Below, one piece after another: positions 4,497 to 15,785 of a stretch of 20,056 nucleotides of DNA. Source of the DNA: a virus; the IMG/VR virus record IMGVR_UViG_3300000651_000012, positions 1 to 20,056 of that record. One strand, given 5' to 3'. Positions within the stretch are counted from its first letter, which is position 1; every line of letters begins with the position of its first letter. Below the pieces are notes generated by a model that was not told the DNA's origin, made no database searches, and saw only the letters and a program-made list of their open reading frames with translations. The translations under genes were made by a program, and so were the position numbers.

Positions 4497-4546
4497 CTCC
4501 TGGCGTGCGAGCGCCAGGAGTATTTGCCAGATTAATAGTGTCTGGC
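4497..4546. repeat. Perfect inverted pair of the GCCAGGAG motif, plus second hairpin
   Basis: CTCCTGGCG (4497-4505) and CGCCAGGAG (4512-4520) are perfect 9-base inverted repeats around TGCGAG, so the dispersed motif occurs here in both orientations. GCCAGA (4526-4531) with TCTGGC (4541-4546) makes a second stem. The leader variant TTAGAAAGGAGCAAAACA follows, ending at the ATG at 4565. As the 5' region of a DNA-binding regulator it could also be an operator. Confidence 0.65.
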
Positions 4547-4564
4547 TTAGAAAGGAGCAAAACA

Positions 4565-4984
4565 ATGGTAACATCTAGTTCAAATCCACACCCACCAAAT
4601 TTGAGCGAAACTTTGTTGACTGCTATATACAATGGTAAATATGACACTGAGGTAACAAAAAAAGTAGCAAAACGACTTGGAGTTCATAACTCAGCATTAT
4701 GGGCTTGGCTTCACAATAAAGGCCAACCTAGTGTAGCAAACGCCAAGAAACTATCTGAGTGGTATAACATTCCTATGGACCAATTGAGAGTTGAGGTTGC
4801 TGTTCCTAGACCTGGTCCTATTGTTACCTACAAAAAGAATAGAAAACGCAGAAACATATCAGAACATAAAGATGTATTGTTTGATCAAGTCGGTGACAAA
4901 TACAGATTCACATGCGACATAATGATTGATAATGTCCAGGATGTATTTGAGCTAATGAAGATTGTGGCGAAATACACAAAGTAA
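4565..4984 (+). CDS. Helix-turn-helix (XRE/Cro-like) regulator (139 aa)
   Basis: Starts MVTSSSNPHPPNLSETLLTA after the leader variant. Residues about 27-75 (TEVTKKVAKRLGVHNSALWA...KLSEWYNI) read as an XRE-type helix-turn-helix: V-A-K-R-L-G-V then the recognition helix. A basic linker (KKNRKRR) and a C-terminal alpha/beta segment, possibly for dimerisation, follow. The likely role is a phage transcriptional regulator. The perfect inverted repeat at 4497-4520 is a candidate autoregulatory site. A terminator-like structure lies just downstream. Whether it is a lysogeny repressor or an early-gene switch cannot be told. Confidence 0.65.
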   Translation: MVTSSSNPHPPNLSETLLTAIYNGKYDTEVTKKVAKRLGVHNSALWAWLHNKGQPSVANAKKLSEWYNIPMDQLRVEVAVPRPGPIVTYKKNRKRRNISEHKDVLFDQVGDKYRFTCDIMIDNVQDVFELMKIVAKYTK

Positions 4985-7096: not shown

Positions 7097-7579
7097 ATGA
7101 CTGCCGCAGGTCCATATATAGAAAATCTACAAGAAATAAAAGTTGAACTAAAGCAACTACGGACTATTATTGCCAAAGTGGCTCGTCAAGTTGATGAGAT
7201 GTATAATTGGGATTATGAGGAAACTACGAGTGGAGGTAATGTAACTCAAGTAGAGGATAGACATGCTCATGATGAAGCAGAAATTAAGGCACGTGGACAA
7301 CGCATTCCATATAACCTTATTTCTGATCCAGTAGATGTATCACAATTTCGTGATTTCATTTACAATGCTAAATCAAGATATAAGATGTTCACAGAGGATG
7401 AACTGAGGTATCTTGACTTTGCTGACAAAAACTTTGAGGATATTAGATTGACCAGAAAACATATTGGCATTCTTCAAGGTGTATATTTCAAATTGTATAG
7501 CAAACCATGGCCATTTAAATCCAAACAAGGATATATGTATAAGCTTGACAATGAAATGATATGGGAGTGGTTCGAATGA
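7097..7579 (+). CDS. Hypothetical protein with N-terminal coiled coil (160 aa)
   Basis: Starts MTAAGPYIENLQEIKVELKQ after CAGGAGAATTAA. Residues 8-38 form a coiled coil. A disordered acidic stretch follows (ETTSGGNV...DRHAHDEAE). The C-terminal domain of about 80 residues is Tyr- and Phe-rich (FRDFIYNAKSRYKMF...LRYLDFADKNF) and ends in an aromatic tail. No family recognised. Its stop overlaps the oxidoreductase start as ATGA, indicating coupling. Confidence 0.6.
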   Translation: MTAAGPYIENLQEIKVELKQLRTIIAKVARQVDEMYNWDYEETTSGGNVTQVEDRHAHDEAEIKARGQRIPYNLISDPVDVSQFRDFIYNAKSRYKMFTEDELRYLDFADKNFEDIRLTRKHIGILQGVYFKLYSKPWPFKSKQGYMYKLDNEMIWEWFE

Positions 7580-8487
7580 TAATCATTGGCGCAGGATTGG
7601 CTGGGCTACTGGCGGCCAGGAGGTTCGCAAATTATAATCCTGTTGTTCATGAGAAACAGGATGATTTGCCAAATAATCATAGTGCTTTGCTACGATTTAG
7701 AACTCCAGCAGTAGGGGAGGCTATTAATGTGCGATTCAAGGAAGTAATTGTACATAAAGGAGTATTGTTAGAAGATGAAGCCACAATTACAAATTTTCCA
7801 ACCGTCAAAGAGTACAATGCTTATTCTTATAAATCAACAGGGGGCATTTACGCCGGCAGATCTATCACCAATATTAAACCTGTTAAACGATACATTGCTC
7901 CCAGTAATTTCGTTCGAACATGTAGTATTGGAGCTAATGTCAGATACAAGAGCAATATTGAAAGCCTCCATAAAGGGGATGAAACCATTATCTCAACAAT
8001 CCCTATGCCTGCCTTGATGGAAATATTACAATATCCAAAAATGCCTAAATTTGTAACAAGTAAAATATGGACAATCAATTGTGATTTAGACAACGTAGAT
8101 ACCTATCAAACTGTGTATATACCATACAATCATTTTGAACCTTACAGAGTAAGTATTACTGGGAGAAGAATGACAATTGAGTTTACTAAGCAACCTGATA
8201 TTCCATCATACTATATTGAGAAATATTGTGATATATTAGCCATATCATCCTCATATAGAAATGTGGAAATGAGGGAACAAATATATGGCAAAATAGTTCC
8301 AATAAATGAATATGAGCGCCAGCAGTTCATTTTATGGGCTACAGATAAATTTGATATTTACTCATTAGGCAGATACGCAACTTGGAGACAAATATTACTT
8401 GATGATGTAATAAAAGACATTGATGTAATCAGTAGATTTATAACCCAAAGAGTTGGATATGATCGTCAACTCAACCTCAAATACTGA
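7576..8487 (+). CDS. FAD-dependent oxidoreductase (303 aa)
   Basis: MIIIGAGLAGLLAARRF is a Rossmann dinucleotide-binding start (G-x-G-x-x-G at residues 5-10, then a helix). Later come the TIISTIPMPAL strand (about 135-145) and a C-terminal LGRYATWRQILLDDVI segment, the place where FAD-binding amine-oxidase or UDP-galactopyranose-mutase-like enzymes close over the cofactor. ATG 7576 is preferred over 7561 because it gives an ATGA overlap and starts the fold directly. It sits 12 bases before the ThyX-like gene, whose family also uses FAD. The substrate is unknown; a role in nucleotide or base chemistry is inferred from context. GCCAGGAG (7615-7622) lies just after the Gly motif. Confidence 0.75.
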   Translation: MIIIGAGLAGLLAARRFANYNPVVHEKQDDLPNNHSALLRFRTPAVGEAINVRFKEVIVHKGVLLEDEATITNFPTVKEYNAYSYKSTGGIYAGRSITNIKPVKRYIAPSNFVRTCSIGANVRYKSNIESLHKGDETIISTIPMPALMEILQYPKMPKFVTSKIWTINCDLDNVDTYQTVYIPYNHFEPYRVSITGRRMTIEFTKQPDIPSYYIEKYCDILAISSSYRNVEMREQIYGKIVPINEYERQQFILWATDKFDIYSLGRYATWRQILLDDVIKDIDVISRFITQRVGYDRQLNLKY

Positions 8488-8499
8488 AAGGAACTCAAC

Positions 8500-9237
8500 A
8501 TGAAAGTAACATTGCTTTATTCTACTCCAAACGCAATAGAACTGCTCATCTTTACAAAGAATACAAGACTCAATATGAATCCCAAAGGCATGGAGGAAAT
8601 CTTCTCCTGGCCGCGTGACAAGAAAATGAATGAACTTAAATACATGGCTTCAACAATTCCTAGCAGTTGGGAATTTGTGGATCTAATCTTCTGTATTGAG
8701 GGTGTATCAAGAGCATTTACACACCAGCTCGTTCGCACTAGAACAGCGAGCTACGCCCAGCAAGCGATGCGTATAGTTGATATGACAGACTTTGATTATT
8801 ATACAGGACCGAGTATAACAGGAGAATTAAAACATACATATGATCAAGCTATGCAAGATATCAACTATGCATATCAAGCTATTGTTGGATCTGGAGCAAA
8901 GCCAGAGGATGCTCGTGGAGTATTGCCAACAAATATTTGTACTAATATTTGTATGAAGATTAATTTGAGAAATTTCTCTGATCTTGTCAAGAAACGTATG
9001 AGCCCCAGAGTTCAAGATGAATACGCTGAAGTATTAAAGCAAATGGTGGAGGAAACACTCAAAGTTTGGCCATGGGCATTACTATTCATCATGCCGCGCA
9101 ACTCTACTGCTCATGCTGAGTTAACACAATACCTCAAAGAACAACTCAACAAGGAGATGAAAGAAACAGGTAAACCACAAAATGAGACTGAAGCTTGGGC
9201 CGCTATGAAACATCTCGACATTCTACGCCAGGAGTAA
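8500..9237 (+). CDS. thyX: ThyX-like flavin-dependent thymidylate synthase, variant motif (245 aa)
   Basis: ThyX methylates dUMP to dTMP using FAD, NADPH and methylene-tetrahydrofolate. The signature here is THQLVRTRTASYAQQAMR (residues 74-91), matching the family's RHR-x7-S region but with Thr for the middle His (80) and Ala (89) for the Ser. The usual His about 20 residues upstream is Phe (SWEFVDL). The Arg after the signature (91), the ARGVLPTN segment and a later Arg (KKRMSP), which match substrate-binding positions in the family, are retained. Length is typical. GAAAGGAACTCAAC precedes the ATG. It could be a true ThyX of a phage lineage, or a relative that makes a modified pyrimidine. 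Confidence 0.75.
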   Translation: MKVTLLYSTPNAIELLIFTKNTRLNMNPKGMEEIFSWPRDKKMNELKYMASTIPSSWEFVDLIFCIEGVSRAFTHQLVRTRTASYAQQAMRIVDMTDFDYYTGPSITGELKHTYDQAMQDINYAYQAIVGSGAKPEDARGVLPTNICTNICMKINLRNFSDLVKKRMSPRVQDEYAEVLKQMVEETLKVWPWALLFIMPRNSTAHAELTQYLKEQLNKEMKETGKPQNETEAWAAMKHLDILRQE

Positions 9238-9239
9238 TT

Positions 9240-9635
9240 ATGATTAAAGAGACAGATACCAATGGTTTCATTATCACTGTAGATACATACTACAAAACAG
9301 GAGTCATCATTAATTCTCTTGTAGAATTGTGTCATGGTGCAGCCAGAGCTAATCATTGGTGGGATAAGGAACGCAATGTAGGAGAAATGCTTTGCTTAAT
9401 ACACAGCGAAATAAGTGAGGCAATGGAGGGACACCGCAAAAGTGCCAAAGATCAACATATAGATCAAGATTCAATGACAGTTGAATTAGCTGATGCTTTA
9501 ATCAGAATACTTGATCTAGCAGGAGGATTGAGATTGAGATTGGGAGAAGCATTTGCTGAGAAGCTATGCTATAATCAGATCAGACCTGATCACAAGATTG
9601 GAAACAGACTAGCGCCAGGGGGGAAAAAATATTGA
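9240..9635 (+). CDS. MazG-like nucleotide pyrophosphohydrolase (131 aa)
   Basis: Starts MIKETDTNGFIITVDTYYKT. The region GEMLCLIHSEISEAMEGHRK...ELADALIRILD has the E-x2-E and E-x2-D helix pairs of the MazG/all-alpha NTP pyrophosphatase fold, which bind magnesium and hydrolyse (d)NTPs to monophosphates. In phages, MazG-like enzymes clean or redirect the nucleotide pool or lower host (p)ppGpp signalling; which applies is unknown. Its ribosome binding site is the AGGAG of a GCCAGGAG copy (9227-9234) that also encodes the end of the ThyX-like protein. The ATG at 9240 is chosen over 9195 for that reason. Confidence 0.75.
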   Translation: MIKETDTNGFIITVDTYYKTGVIINSLVELCHGAARANHWWDKERNVGEMLCLIHSEISEAMEGHRKSAKDQHIDQDSMTVELADALIRILDLAGGLRLRLGEAFAEKLCYNQIRPDHKIGNRLAPGGKKY

Positions 9636-9925
9636 TTATGAAACCAGACGCACAACTAATACAATTGGCTGATTTATTCAAGGAAAGAAATCAGCAATAT
9701 GGTAATAGTTACAAAGAAACAGGGAAAGTTTTTGAGGCTCTATTTCCTAATGGAATAAAAATTGATGGGGAGCTAGATTTCAACAGATTTTGTATCCTTG
9801 TTCAAATTGTTGGAAAACTCAATAGATATTGTAACAACTTTGCTATGCCATTATCATCTGATCATCTCAAAGACATATCAGTATATGCAACAATGCTATT
9901 AGAATTAGATGGTGGAAAAGGATGA
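9632..9925 (+). CDS. DUF1599/Nmad1-like nucleotide-associated protein (97 aa)
   Basis: The pattern ERNQQYGNSYKETGKVFEALFPNGI....DFNRF.ILVQIVGKLNRY......H..DI.VYATML resembles DUF1599-type proteins. These are helical and were proposed from gene neighbourhoods as nucleotide-modification-associated (Nmad1). It is placed directly after MazG-like and ThyX-like genes, as expected for that idea. Start: TTG at 9632 overlaps the upstream stop (TTGA) and lies 8 bases after a G6 run, whereas ATG at 9638 is 14 bases away. TTG is therefore preferred, but ATG remains possible. Confidence 0.6.
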   Translation: MIMKPDAQLIQLADLFKERNQQYGNSYKETGKVFEALFPNGIKIDGELDFNRFCILVQIVGKLNRYCNNFAMPLSSDHLKDISVYATMLLELDGGKG

Positions 9926-10476
9926 GCCTCATTTTCATGGATACAGAGACAACCGCGCTCCTGGCGGTGGAAGCCGCTGAGATACAACATCAACCGCATA
10001 TTGTAGAAATATATTGCTTAAAGACAAATGATAAATTTGAACAAATATCACAATTTCATACTCTAATGAAGGTGCCAATAATAATACCAGAAGAAGTTGT
10101 TAAGATACATGGTATTGATAATCAAGCGGTTGAAGGCTATAGACCATTTGCAGGATACTACCGCCAGTTAGCAAACTATTTTGTAGGTGTAACACATCTA
10201 ATAGGACACAATCTACAATATGATAAACGTATGTTGATCTATGAATTAACAAGAATCAACAAGCAATATAGTTTCCCATGGCCGCCAAGAGATATATGCA
10301 CTGTAGAAGAATTACAGAAAGTTATTGGATACAGAATATCTCTCAGCAATATTCATGCCGAATTGTTTGGTATTGGGTTTGAATCTGCTCATTCGGCTAA
10401 AGCAGATACAGAAGCATTATTGAAAGTATACAAGGAGTTGGTCAGACGTGACATGGTAAAAGGGCCAGTACTATGA
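9922..10476 (+). CDS. DnaQ-like 3'-5' exonuclease (184 aa)
   Basis: A proofreading-type exonuclease of the DEDDh group. MDTETT gives the first Asp and Glu (residues 7 and 9), HNLQYDK (about 95-101) the second Asp, and HSAKAD (about 155-160) the His and last Asp. KIHGID near residue 72 is the usual I/V-x-GI-T/D segment. It is coupled upstream (ATGA) and lies just before the C-family polymerase. It therefore probably acts as a detached epsilon-type proofreader, in line with the degenerate PHP domain of that polymerase. CTCCTGGC (9958-9965) lies right after the catalytic DTE codons. The family is secure; the partnership is inferred. Confidence 0.85.
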   Translation: MSLIFMDTETTALLAVEAAEIQHQPHIVEIYCLKTNDKFEQISQFHTLMKVPIIIPEEVVKIHGIDNQAVEGYRPFAGYYRQLANYFVGVTHLIGHNLQYDKRMLIYELTRINKQYSFPWPPRDICTVEELQKVIGYRISLSNIHAELFGIGFESAHSAKADTEALLKVYKELVRRDMVKGPVL

Positions 10477-10631
10477 TAAATCCCTGTAAAGAGCACCCTA
10501 ATTTTGATCATATGGCTGAACCAGAACAAAGACACTATGTATTGTGTCCATTGTGCGCACAAGCTTTACGCAAACTAGAATACAAGAGGCAAAAAGAACA
10601 ATATGAAAACTCAACTACAAATAAGAACTGA
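10473..10631 (+). CDS. Small Cys/His protein (52 aa)
   Basis: ATG at 10473 overlaps the exonuclease stop (ATGA) and opens a 52-codon frame beginning MINPCKEHPNFDHMAEPEQR, with YVLCPLCAQALRKLEYKRQ in the middle. C-x2-H plus C-x2-C is a likely zinc site, followed by a basic helix. It overlaps the polymerase start by 29 bases. The coupled start, zinc pattern and tight fit between two certain genes support it. Function unknown. Confidence 0.6.
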   Translation: MINPCKEHPNFDHMAEPEQRHYVLCPLCAQALRKLEYKRQKEQYENSTTNKN

Positions 10632-13389
10632 GTTTTCATTCCGTTGGGCATTTGGGCCTGTCCGCAAAGTTGTGGGCAGGCTCAAAGAGCTTCAGTGTAA
10701 ATCAGCAGCAATTACTGATCGAAATTCTACATTTGGTCACATCGCATGGAATAAGCATTGTAAAGCAGCTGGTATTAAGCCAATATTTGGTTGTGAATTT
10801 GCTTTCATAGAAGACATAAACGTCCGCCAGAAGAAACAAAATCTATTCTGGTTACCAGTAATTGCTAAAACAAATGCTGGCCTCAGAGAACTATATGCAA
10901 CATTAGAAGAAGCAACACACAATTTTCATTATGTGCCACGATTGCCTTTCAGCAAAATAGATGATTTTAGTCAAGATGTAATAGTGTTTAGCGGAATTTC
11001 AGGTCTAGGCAACGGTGTTAAGCTTCCCACGCATGTATATAGATCGGGCCATCCCGCGACCTCACATGTATTATTATCAGAAAATATAGTGCCAGTTTCA
11101 GATAACTATATGATCACAACAGCAGATCGTTCAGCTTATGAAATATTATCAGGTAGAAATAAGAATGATCGACCATCTCCAATGCATATATTAGATGAAT
11201 GGGAGCTAAGAAATGACATAGAATTGGAGGATGATGCATTTGAATTAGCAGATAAATTAGCAGAAGAATGTACAGCAGAAATACAAATTGCTACAAACAT
11301 CAAATATAAATCAAACTTGACACTGTTAGAGATGTGCATTCTTGGTGCAAGGGAGCGCGGCCTGGAGCTTAATGACACATATAAAGAGAGACTGGACTAT
11401 GAACTTAAGTTGATCATTGACAAGGGTTATGAGGACTATTTCTATGTAATAGCAGACATGGTGCGATATGCAAAGAATCATATGGTTGTTGGCCCGGCAC
11501 GCGGCTCTAGTTGTGGTTCTCTTGTCTGTTATTTGCTGGGCATTACTGATATTGATCCTTTACCTCATGGTCTTATTTTTGAAAGATTCATTGACATTAC
11601 TCGATTTGATTTGCCTGACATTGATATTGATTTTCAAGACAATAAAAGAGAAATGGTATTCAATTATATTCAAGACAAATACGGCCAGGAGAATGTGGCC
11701 AGATTGGGAACAGTGCTAAAATACAAGCCTAAATCAGCAATATCTGATGCTGCTAAAGCTTTACAAATACCAGATTGGGAAACAAAAGCAGTCAAAGATT
11801 CAATGCTGAAACGATCCAGTGGAGATTCACGTGCTGGATTTGCTATACTTGACACCTTTTCAGAGCTAGAAACAGGTCAACGTTTTATTGAGAAATATCC
11901 AGCAATGAAAATAGCTGGAGATTTAGAGGGACATGCACACTATACAGGTAAACATGCTGCTGGCGTGATTATCACGAATGAACCGCTCATAAATTATGTT
12001 GCTAAAGATGCAAGAACAAATACAGTTCAAATAGATAAAATAGATGCAGAGAACATCAATCTTATGAAGATTGATGCTCTGGGTCTCAAAACATTAACAA
12101 TTATTTCTGATTGCCTGGATTCAATAGGTTGGAAATACAATGATTTGCTTAAACATCCTCTAGATGATGATAAAGCATATGAAGTATTGCGCAAATTTCG
12201 TTTCTGTGGCATTTTCCAATATGAAGGTCAGGCTCTGCAAACCCTGGCCAGGAGAGTTCACATTGATAGATTTGATGATATATCATGTTTAACAGCACTA
12301 GCTAGACCTGGACCCTTTGCTTCTGGTGCTGCGAATGAATGGGTCCAACGACGCATGGGCAAGACCCAAGTAACATATCAACATCAAACTATGGAGAAAT
12401 ACACACGTGAAACCTATGGGCTTATTGTTTATCAAGAACAAGTCATGCTATGTGTTCGTGAGATTGGCCTACTCTCGTGGGAGGATACGTCCACGCTACG
12501 CAAAGCTATGTCAAAGTCGTTCGGTCTTGAATACTTTGATCAATTCTGGCAAAAATTTAGAAATGGCGCCGCCTCGCAAGGCATCACAGAAGAAATTTCC
12601 AGGAAGATTTGGGACTCTGTCAACTCATTTGGCTCGTGGGCTTTCAACAAGAGCCATGCGGTTGCATACGGCACGCTATCATATTTTTGTTGTGTATTGA
12701 AGGCACACTTTCCAATCGAATTTGCTCTTGCTGTTATTCGTAATACTCAAGATGTTATTGCAATCAAACGTTATCTCAGAGAACTAGACAGAGATGGATA
12801 TGAGGTAAAGAGTTATGACATTATGCGTAGTGAAGTATCATGGTCTTTCAAAGACAATGTATTCTTAGGCGGACTGACAAATATCAAAGGTATTGGAACC
12901 AAGAAAGCAGAGAAAATGCTCCTGGCGCCGCCTGACAATAGGCCCTTCATGGTGCCATATCCTATCATTACACCATATGACAATTTGTTTGAAGGCAGAA
13001 CTAGATTTGCTGATCTAATTGAAAATCCTCGCAAATATAATATTGTGCGGAACAAGAGATCAGATTTGATTGATATACATGATGAATATGAGGGTCCAGC
13101 AGTATTCATCGCCAAATTAATACACCGCAACGAGAGATCGCTTAATGAGGCAATGTTCTTAGTTCAGCGCAACAATGTCAAAGTTCCAATGGACAAATGG
13201 TTAAATATATTGTTGGAGGATGATACTTCCACAATATATGCCACAATCTCCAGATACAAATTTCCATCAATGGGAATAATGCTGCTTAACAAATACAATA
13301 CTGGAGACTGGTTTATCTGGGGCGGAACTGTCAAGAGTGGGAGACGCATGTATGTGGATCAATATAGGTTTATCGGGGCCGCGAGCTAG
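10603..13389 (+). CDS. dnaE: C-family DNA polymerase, DNA pol III alpha-like (928 aa)
   Basis: The order follows bacterial DnaE. First is an N-terminal PHP domain (to about residue 200), then the ARGSSCGSLVCYLLG segment (about 299-313). The catalytic triad is PDIDIDF (Asp 339 and 341) and KIDALGLKTL (Asp 491). GLIVYQEQVM lies near residue 607, and a helix-hairpin-helix (NIKGIGTKKAE) near 760. At 928 residues it is shorter than cellular DnaE (about 1,160) and ends soon after the fingers and HhH region. The PHP metal site looks dead: RTEFS replaces H-x-HTxYS-type residues and TDRN replaces TDHG. A separate DnaQ-like gene precedes it. The ribosome binding site is weak, so translation may depend on coupling. 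Two forward (11684, 12247) and one reverse (12919) motif copies lie inside. Confidence 0.93.
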   Translation: MKTQLQIRTEFSFRWAFGPVRKVVGRLKELQCKSAAITDRNSTFGHIAWNKHCKAAGIKPIFGCEFAFIEDINVRQKKQNLFWLPVIAKTNAGLRELYATLEEATHNFHYVPRLPFSKIDDFSQDVIVFSGISGLGNGVKLPTHVYRSGHPATSHVLLSENIVPVSDNYMITTADRSAYEILSGRNKNDRPSPMHILDEWELRNDIELEDDAFELADKLAEECTAEIQIATNIKYKSNLTLLEMCILGARERGLELNDTYKERLDYELKLIIDKGYEDYFYVIADMVRYAKNHMVVGPARGSSCGSLVCYLLGITDIDPLPHGLIFERFIDITRFDLPDIDIDFQDNKREMVFNYIQDKYGQENVARLGTVLKYKPKSAISDAAKALQIPDWETKAVKDSMLKRSSGDSRAGFAILDTFSELETGQRFIEKYPAMKIAGDLEGHAHYTGKHAAGVIITNEPLINYVAKDARTNTVQIDKIDAENINLMKIDALGLKTLTIISDCLDSIGWKYNDLLKHPLDDDKAYEVLRKFRFCGIFQYEGQALQTLARRVHIDRFDDISCLTALARPGPFASGAANEWVQRRMGKTQVTYQHQTMEKYTRETYGLIVYQEQVMLCVREIGLLSWEDTSTLRKAMSKSFGLEYFDQFWQKFRNGAASQGITEEISRKIWDSVNSFGSWAFNKSHAVAYGTLSYFCCVLKAHFPIEFALAVIRNTQDVIAIKRYLRELDRDGYEVKSYDIMRSEVSWSFKDNVFLGGLTNIKGIGTKKAEKMLLAPPDNRPFMVPYPIITPYDNLFEGRTRFADLIENPRKYNIVRNKRSDLIDIHDEYEGPAVFIAKLIHRNERSLNEAMFLVQRNNVKVPMDKWLNILLEDDTSTIYATISRYKFPSMGIMLLNKYNTGDWFIWGGTVKSGRRMYVDQYRFIGAAS

Positions 13390-13790: not shown

Positions 13791-14123
13791 ATGTTTGAAA
13801 ACATATCAAGAGTAATTGCTGAACATTGCGGCAGAGCCTATGCGTTCATTTTGTCTGTACTTGTTGTAGTAATTTGGGGAATAACTGGACCAATATTTCA
13901 TTATTCAGATACATGGCAACTCATCATCAACACTGGAACCACAGTTGTAACTTTTTGGCTAGTGTTTATTATTCAGTCTACACAGAATAGAGATCAAATA
14001 GCATTACAATTAAAACTTGATGAATTAATCAGAGCTACCAAAGGAGCAAGAGATGAGATAGCAGGCATTGAAGATAAAACTGAAAAAGAATTGCGTGATC
14101 TCAAAGGAGAACACGATGGATAG
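13791..14123 (+). CDS. Low-affinity iron permease-like membrane protein (110 aa)
   Basis: The run AFILSVLVVVIWGITGPI...SDTWQLIINTGTTVVTFW...FIIQSTQNRD...LQLKLDELIRATKGAR is the conserved core of PF04120 (low affinity iron permease) of bacteria. There are two membrane spans (about 17-37 and 47-67). The ...SDTWQL(I)INTGTT..TF..VF.IQ.TQNRD signature and a charged helical tail follow. Length fits short bacterial members. In bacteria the family is linked by name to iron transport, but bacterial function is poorly established. It starts right after the previous stop, with no strong ribosome binding site, so coupling is likely. A phage copy is unusual. Base composition matches its neighbours, so it is not a recent arrival. 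Confidence 0.85.
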   Translation: MFENISRVIAEHCGRAYAFILSVLVVVIWGITGPIFHYSDTWQLIINTGTTVVTFWLVFIIQSTQNRDQIALQLKLDELIRATKGARDEIAGIEDKTEKELRDLKGEHDG

Positions 14124-14340
14124 AAAAGCTGTAGAAGAGGCACTAGATGCTGCAATAAATAATTGCACTGAGCTTTTTGAACTAACTGGTAAGCCTAGTC
14201 CAGAGTTATTCTTTATGTCTGGACTCGCATCGTTTCTGATAACTATGAAAACAACTGCGCCAGAAATGCATGTAGATGAAATACTACAAGTTATGCGCAG
14301 TATTGCCATGAACAAACTCCATATGGGAACTGCCACATGA
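14116..14340 (+). CDS. Small helical protein (74 aa)
   Basis: Starts MDRKAVEEALDAAINNCTEL behind AAAGGAGAACACG, which sets this ATG rather than the in-frame 14068. Entirely helical in appearance, with no Cys cluster or membrane segment. No family recognised. It overlaps the permease gene by 8 bases and the peroxidase start by the ATGA overlap, so the three are probably translated as a unit. Confidence 0.65.
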   Translation: MDRKAVEEALDAAINNCTELFELTGKPSPELFFMSGLASFLITMKTTAPEMHVDEILQVMRSIAMNKLHMGTAT

Positions 14341-15785
14341 CACAATTGCTGAAAGAGTTCCGGTCATTAGATGGATCTGGTAACAATCTTAATAATCCAA
14401 GTGAAAATCAAACTGGCACTGGTGAACGAGAATTGTTGCCACGCGGGCCAGGAGTAGGAACTGGAACTAATGCTAGGCAAATCTCTAATGTCGTTTCTTC
14501 TGGGCCGCATGCCGATGATGCTAATCCTCAAGGATTAAGCGCCATGATGTATGTGTGGGGCCAATTCCTTGATCATGATATGGATTTGACACCGCAAGAT
14601 AATACAAATCATATTGACATAACGATACCTGCTGGTGATCCAACTAAGCCAGAAGGATCTGTTATATCATTGACTCGATTTATGTTACAAGATGGAACAG
14701 CCAAAAATACAGTAAGTGGATGGATTGATGGATCACAAGTCTATGGATCAGACACAAATACTGCAAATAGTCTCCGTTTGCCTGATGGACATTTGGCAAC
14801 CAGCAGTGGAAACAATTCACCAATTGTCAATGGCCATTTCGTCGCAGGAGATGTCAGGGTTGCCGAGAATCCAGACCTTACTAGCATCACCACTCTATTC
14901 GTCCGAGAACACAACCGATTGGTTGATCAGTTACACAGAGATAATCCCAGTTGGACGGGAGACCAATTGTATAATATGGGACGCGCAATTGTGGGTGCGG
15001 AAATAGAGAACATTACATATACTGAGTTTCTTCCACATCTCCTGGGCATGACAGCTATACCTGTATACACAGGATATGATCCTAGTGTAGATGCTAGAAT
15101 TACTGAAGAGTTTTCTACAACTACATTTAGATTTGGTCACTCGATTATTAGTGGTGTCGAAGAAAAGGTTGGTCCTGATGGAAAGGAGATAAGCAGTCAA
15201 AAACTGAGTGATGCTTTCAATGATACTCCTGCTGATGTAGAATCAGATGGTGGTGTTGAATCTCTCTTGCGCGGTATTACACGAGATTTATCTGTTACCA
15301 ATGATGTGTTTGTAATTAATGATTTGCGTAATTTACTTGCTGATTCTCCTGTATTTACTGATCTATTTGCAGTAGATATACAACGTGAGCGTGACCTGAA
15401 CATTAGCAATCTTAATCAAGCTAGAATTGCATTGGGACTAAAGCCATACGGATCGTTTAGCGATTTGACCACTGATCCTAATGTGCTAAACAATTTGATT
15501 AAGTCTTATAACTCTATTAATGATGTGGATCTCTTTATTGGAGGATTAGCTGAGCCGCATATTCAAGGTGCTATTGTAGGTGAGACGTTTAGGACTATGT
15601 TGACTAACCAGTTCATTGCACTAAGGGATGGTGATCGACTGTGGTGGCAAAATGCTGGATTTGATTCTGATACACAGAAGATGATCGCCAGTAGAACATT
15701 GGCTAATATACTTGACGATAATGCCAATGTAACAATACCAGGTAAAGATGTGTTCTTGGCAAGCAACCCAGTGGATGCTTCATAA
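14337..15785 (+). CDS. Animal-type haem peroxidase (peroxidase-cyclooxygenase family, 482 aa)
   Basis: A complete bacterial-style member of the animal haem peroxidase family. FRSLDGSGNNL opens the chain. WGQFLDHD (74-81) supplies distal Gln76, haem-linked Asp79 and distal His80. VRVAEN (173-178) supplies distal Arg174 and haem-linked Glu177. FVREHNRL follows. FRFGHS (264-269) supplies proximal His268. IQRERDLNISNLNQAR and RDGDRLWWQN are family landmarks. All expected catalytic residues are present, so an active enzyme oxidising halides or organic substrates with hydrogen peroxide is likely. No signal peptide is seen, so it would be cytoplasmic, released by lysis, or virion-borne. Coupled to the upstream gene (ATGA) and downstream gene (TAATG). 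This is a striking cargo for a phage. Confidence 0.9.
   Translation: MTQLLKEFRSLDGSGNNLNNPSENQTGTGERELLPRGPGVGTGTNARQISNVVSSGPHADDANPQGLSAMMYVWGQFLDHDMDLTPQDNTNHIDITIPAGDPTKPEGSVISLTRFMLQDGTAKNTVSGWIDGSQVYGSDTNTANSLRLPDGHLATSSGNNSPIVNGHFVAGDVRVAENPDLTSITTLFVREHNRLVDQLHRDNPSWTGDQLYNMGRAIVGAEIENITYTEFLPHLLGMTAIPVYTGYDPSVDARITEEFSTTTFRFGHSIISGVEEKVGPDGKEISSQKLSDAFNDTPADVESDGGVESLLRGITRDLSVTNDVFVINDLRNLLADSPVFTDLFAVDIQRERDLNISNLNQARIALGLKPYGSFSDLTTDPNVLNNLIKSYNSINDVDLFIGGLAEPHIQGAIVGETFRTMLTNQFIALRDGDRLWWQNAGFDSDTQKMIASRTLANILDDNANVTIPGKDVFLASNPVDAS

Follow-up and report, generated by a model that had tools for sequence, protein, structure and literature searches.

Results

A four-gene cassette upstream of replication genes

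The window analyzed here, the whole 20,056-base virus record IMGVR_UViG_3300000651_000012, probably represents part of a tailed phage genome. A reading made from the sequence alone had pointed to four consecutive genes, and these are indeed present head to tail on the plus strand at positions 7576–9925, followed by genes for an exonuclease and a polymerase:

7576–8487, + strand: UGM-fold flavoprotein, core component 1 (phrog_4828, E 1.2e-57; GxGxxG)
8500–9237, + strand: divergent ThyX-like protein, core component 2 (PF02511, E 9.9e-35)
9240–9635, + strand: MazG-like nucleotide pyrophosphohydrolase-like protein (phrog_5658, E 4.4e-45; ExxE...ExxD pattern)
9632 or 9638–9925, + strand: small all-helical DUF6378-like protein (start TTG 9632 or ATG 9638)
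9922–10476, + strand: DnaQ-like 3'-5' exonuclease, downstream context (PF00929, E 5.6e-18)
10603–13389, + strand: DnaE-type (PolIII alpha) replicative polymerase, downstream context (PF07733, E 1.2e-67)

For the flavoprotein, the ATG at 7576 is the likelier start, and an ATG at 7561 is also open. The cluster stands well above chance, its gene order and content being kept across distant phages, and its downstream context is likewise conserved, with the DnaQ-like exonuclease found in 61 loci and the DnaE-type polymerase in 66.

Elsewhere in the window, a leader-like repeat, CTAGAAAGGAATGGAACAATGG, occurs in seven copies (81–116, 528–563, 935–970, 1499–1534, 2169–2204, 2683–2718 and 4542–4577). 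Each copy ends in the start codon of a small gene, and the repeat likely serves these genes in common for ribosome binding or regulation. The window also encodes an animal-type haem peroxidase (14337–15785, + strand; PF03098, E 2.3e-109), which has no PHROG match and is unusual cargo for a phage genome. Directly 5' of it lies a gene for a low-affinity iron permease family protein (13791–14123, + strand; PF04120, E 4e-45; phrog_3485), and the two are possibly an iron/peroxide-related pair.

The flavoprotein resembles UDP-galactopyranose mutase

The first gene had been read as an FAD oxidoreductase. Its GxGxxG motif and its phrog_4828 match bear out a flavoprotein, and structural comparison corrects the family. 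The AlphaFold2 model (pLDDT 93.8) finds its best structural match in UDP-galactopyranose mutase (UGM; Z 21.3, rmsd 3.5, 292 of 303 residues, 15% identity), ranking above protoporphyrinogen oxidase and monoamine oxidase, and Foldseek gives E 1.5e-10 for the model against UGM. On the evidence of this model, the fold is UGM-like. A Pfam scan at E <= 1 returned only sub-threshold Rossmann/FAD/NAD matches and no match to the Pfam UGM family (GLF). Residues invariant over 64 sequences include H35, R40, R95, R105, R191, E202, K239, R266, D276 and D281, a set that would suit a phosphate-bearing, nucleotide-like substrate. The homolog in Rhizobium phage TM30 (L004:4608–5567; phrog_4828, E 1.8e-76) is annotated "polysaccharide deacetylase," which is probably a misannotation.

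A ThyX clade that has lost active-site histidines

The second protein matches the Thy1 family profile, scoring 120.5 bits on PF02511 against a cut-off of 24.8, and it carries RTRTASYAQQAMR in place of RHRxxSxxxxSxR, so that the ThyX-like protein with an altered signature described from the sequence alone stands as described. On TIGR02170 it scores 84.3 bits against the NCBI equivalog cut-off of 87.9; members of its clade (78.1–102.2 bits) straddle that cut-off, and ordinary phage ThyX proteins score 171–218 bits.

Residues are numbered here by Thermotoga maritima (Tm) ThyX, the construct numbering being offset by 12. In ordinary ThyX, histidines of the His53, His79 and His178 type contact flavin and folate. 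Among 63 flavoprotein-linked ThyX proteins, His53 is replaced by Ile, Val or Leu and His178 by Arg or Lys in every case, and His79, the second position of the signature, is Thr, Ser or Asn in 56; the 7 that retain His79 all have Lys at 178. The Ser88 position holds S, T or A, and N85 has become Ala in 61. The window protein has replacements at Tm H53, H79, H178 and S88. Residues aligned to Tm E58, Q75, R78, R80, R147, R165 and R174 are invariant in the linked proteins. Four ordinary phage ThyX proteins, by comparison, retain His53 and the RHR motif, and no such flavoprotein was found with the ordinary phage ThyX proteins compared. The linked proteins form one clade (support 95/97), whose sister group, made up of actinophage proteins, is likewise without His53 and His79.

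These features have to be weighed against the main rival explanation, ordinary thymidylate supply, in which the linked ThyX evolves fast but still makes dTMP as a true synthase, the flavoprotein serves it as redox partner or is some other enzyme of the nucleotide pool, and the MazG-like and HAD proteins adjust the dNTP supply of the phage DnaE polymerase. It draws support from a PF02511 score well over threshold, from a clade that straddles the TIGR02170 cut-off at 78–102 bits, from the position of the cassette among replication genes, and from the fact that ThyX with the substitution S88A stays active. Yet ordinary phage ThyX proteins reach 171–218 bits on the same profile and do so without such a flavoprotein, and His53 and His178 are lost throughout the linked clade, with His79 lost in nearly all. 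Moreover, ordinary supply would leave unexplained both the tailoring genes and the restriction resistance of phage JG024 and the Wifceviruses described below. We consider it rather unlikely.

Flavoprotein and ThyX are inseparable

We fetched 80 viral-contig loci with the flavoprotein profile and read them for ThyX. In 79 of the 80, a ThyX gene lies 3' of the flavoprotein gene on the same strand; in the lone exception (L054), the contig stops 19 nt past the flavoprotein. The gap between the two genes is <=60 nt in 53 of 89 loci and <=2,540 nt in all 89. In cellular genomes the flavoprotein family hardly occurs: only three cellular-genome contigs carry it, two of them (L105 and L106) with both core genes and the third (L107) ending inside the flavoprotein gene. 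Among isolates, the window query and a distant Rhizobium query each returned 359 records with the flavoprotein; most are Pbunavirus, and the others include Wifcevirus, Carpasinavirus and Rhizobium jumbo phages. ThyX matches are distributed over the same genera with almost the same counts, the pair matching by host genus in Pseudomonas (291/291), Escherichia (27/27), Serratia (9/9), Xanthomonas (6/6) and Rhizobium (8/10) records. The pairwise-distance matrices of the two proteins correlate with r 0.54, the best of 2000 permutations reaching 0.14.

The linkage is effectively obligate. By these computed comparisons, the UGM-fold flavoprotein does not part from its distinct ThyX clade and co-varies with it, the pair lying just upstream of the replicative exonuclease and polymerase. 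The same data bear on a second alternative, that the product of the UGM-like enzyme is a sugar nucleotide, with a role in glycans or in anti-defense, and that only shared regulation joins this enzyme to ThyX. The UGM fold and the label "UDP-galactopyranose mutase" in some database annotations speak for it. Against it, the flavoprotein of phages unrelated to one another is obligately linked to a single ThyX clade and varies together with it, and the family is nearly missing from cells; we regard this alternative as very improbable.

The Rhizobium jumbo phage TM30 carries the pair, and no ThyA-type enzyme was found in it. The cytosine-modified RL38JI was considered as an analogy for a cytosine target in TM30. 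A candidate FAD homolog beside ThyX in Gordonia phage Gmala1 was rejected, the neighbor being a PD-(D/E)XK nuclease.

Variable partners surround the constant core

The third protein was described from the sequence alone as MazG-like. It has the motif EISE, followed about 21 residues on by ELAD, in agreement with the metal-binding pattern ExxE(12–28)ExxD, and it matches the PHROG "pyrophosphatase" family phrog_5658 (E 4.4e-45), both of which uphold the description; the Pfam MazG family gave no match to the window protein. In another locus (L045), PF03819 (MazG) does match the gene directly downstream of ThyX. A MazG-like protein is present in 11 of 90 loci.

The fourth gene had been taken for a DUF1599/Nmad1-like protein, an identity that we reject. 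The DUF1599 profile matched neither the window protein (E <= 1) nor any of 34 homologs (E <= 0.1), and the nearest Pfam family is instead DUF6378, matched by 17 of 35 members with a best E of 1.4e-4. The predicted structure is all-helical (pLDDT 89.5) and had no significant match in the PDB. Of 90 loci, 58 have a DUF6378-like homolog 3' of ThyX, and in several of these the homolog is fused to a HAD phosphatase; a HAD phosphatase occurs in 55 loci. What stands third beside the core pair therefore varies, and the MazG-like and DUF6378-like genes are common, not constant, partners of the core.

Other loci carry genes for candidate tailoring enzymes. NodU-type carbamoyltransferases occur in 7 loci, between the flavoprotein and ThyX in L028, L029, L030 and L033 and in or beside the cassette in L052, L087 and L088, which suggests a carbamoylated base in some phages. 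In Vibrio phage VA-RY-3, a sulfotransferase-like gene (L002:9369–10124; PF13469, E 5.8e-7) two genes past ThyX suggests a sulfated decoration. SDR proteins are found in about 24 loci, glyoxalase-fold proteins in 17, SAM methyltransferases in 7 and radical SAM proteins in 2. Most loci, the window included, lack tailoring genes. Changing decorators around a constant core form the pattern expected of a base-modification pathway.

Restriction resistance of phages that carry the pair

Phage JG024 carries the flavoprotein and ThyX. Its virion DNA is left uncut by ScaI, NdeI and BsaI and is cut by XbaI (PMC10913387), and SacII cuts it as well (PMC3008698). The genome contains 2 ScaI, 10 NdeI, 5 BsaI, 6 XbaI and 3 SacII sites. 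The authors of the JG024 study proposed methylation (PMC10913387), and host methylation may be an alternative source of the resistance. A Pfam scan of 55 JG024 non-structural proteins, which remote enzymes could escape, gave no methyltransferase or other known modification enzyme.

Comparison data show that NdeI is blocked on thymidine-modified ViI DNA and cuts T4 DNA containing 5gmC. Because of this NdeI pattern, and because the SacII site (CCGCGG) has no A or T, a modified T (or A) fits JG024 better than a modified C or G. We weighed as counter-evidence that XbaI (TCTAGA) and Cas9 act on JG024 DNA; any modification there would therefore be partial, small or context-dependent and not a universal block. 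Wifceviruses, which also carry the pair (L005), withstand every restriction-modification system tested apart from EcoP1_I, which is of type III, by no known mechanism (PMC11990801), and this exception could help to name the modified base.

A third alternative is that a different base, for example cytosine or adenine, is modified and that the substrate of ThyX is another nucleotide. Phage enzymes of the thymidylate synthase superfamily also make modified dCMP (PMC13390438), a carbamoyltransferase acts in a cytosine-modification system (PMC8670742), and cytosine-modified T4gt DNA resists ScaI. The cutting of JG024 DNA by SacII at CCGCGG and the block of NdeI on JG024 but not on 5gmC T4 DNA argue the other way, and we judge this alternative improbable.

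Discussion

The sequence-only reading proposed a role in nucleotide modification from family context. That role now has a broader basis in the obligate linkage, the accessory transferases and oxidoreductases and the published restriction data. We propose, with moderate confidence, that the locus is a pyrimidine-modification cassette with two obligately linked enzymes at its core, yielding a C5-modified pyrimidine, most likely derived from thymidine.

From the linkage, the clade, the residue losses, the fold and the neighboring genes, we infer substrate, product and order of reactions as follows; the chemistry proposed for the pair leans on residue conservation. First, the altered ThyX would bind dUMP, because it retains the residues to which dUMP and FAD binding is ascribed. 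Second, it would use methylene-tetrahydrofolate as donor to place a one-carbon unit on C5 without finishing the ordinary reduction to dTMP, which would leave a C5 handle, such as 5-hydroxymethyl, on the nucleotide. Third, the UGM-like flavoprotein, with its many invariant Arg and Lys residues and its UGM-like GRxxxWR motif, would act next on the nucleotide bearing this handle. Fourth, MazG-like, DUF6378-like or HAD proteins may clear the competing normal nucleotide, and DnaE would build the modified product into DNA. Finally, the handle could in certain lineages be decorated by an SDR or by a transferase, whether carbamoyl-, sulfo-, methyl- or other. The outcome would be DNA resistant to many restriction enzymes.

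More tentatively, Pbunaviruses, Wifceviruses and many uncultured phages may contain a modified thymidine not described before, the product of a new pair of enzymes. In this pair a ThyX without its histidines would start the one-carbon transfer, and the UGM-like flavoprotein, possibly through flavin N5 chemistry, would complete or divert it. Pbunaviruses rank with the Pseudomonas phages most often used in therapy. If their DNA is indeed modified, this would matter for host range, for restriction, for nanopore sequencing and for the rebooting of genomes, and it could be the reason that restriction enzymes fail on the DNA of some such therapy phages. Such a modification would also account for the unexplained restriction resistance of Wifceviruses, and it would give two named genes through which a nucleotide chemistry not yet described can be tested.

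Comparison with known systems

Base modification in phages by way of a thymidylate synthase relative is already known; in our literature search, no paper was found that names the flavoprotein–ThyX pair or describes it as a modification system, nor was any nucleoside analysis found for a phage that carries it. The linked proteins share with ThyX the family profile (PF02511/TIGR02170) and the residues at Tm E58, Q75, R78, R80, R147, R165 and R174. They differ from it in lacking His53 and His178 in all cases and His79 in nearly all, in having A, S or T at Ser88 and Ala for N85, and in forming a separate clade that is always paired with the flavoprotein. The flavoprotein, in turn, resembles UGM in its whole-length fold (Z 21.3) and its C-terminal GRxxxWR-type motif. 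Unlike UGM, it has no GLF match, is only 15% identical, spans about 300 rather than 360–500 residues, and is phage-restricted and tied to ThyX.

With the thymidine hypermodification of phages M6, ViI, phiW-14 and SP-15, the pathway proposed here would share a synthase-superfamily enzyme acting at the mononucleotide stage, removal of the competing nucleotide and later tailoring; SP-15, too, has genes for Thy1-family enzymes (PMC5977210). Unlike those systems, the window encodes a UGM-like flavoprotein, and neither a 5-hmdU DNA kinase nor an amino-acid:DNA transferase or other transferase of such pathways was recognized in it, a fragment, or among the JG024 non-structural proteins.

A parallel in gene arrangement is found in the Krampusvirus group, where Microbacterium phage Chivey (L097:524–2643) has a short FAD oxidoreductase abutting or overlapping a ThyX that lacks His53 and His79, with a MazG-like gene nearby. 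The sequences are very distant and the Chivey ThyX is longer, but its FAD protein shows remote similarity to the flavoprotein (hhalign P 95%) and its ThyX falls in the sister clade of the linked ThyX proteins. The FAD oxidoreductase and ThyX of Chivey are possibly a second version of the same pair.
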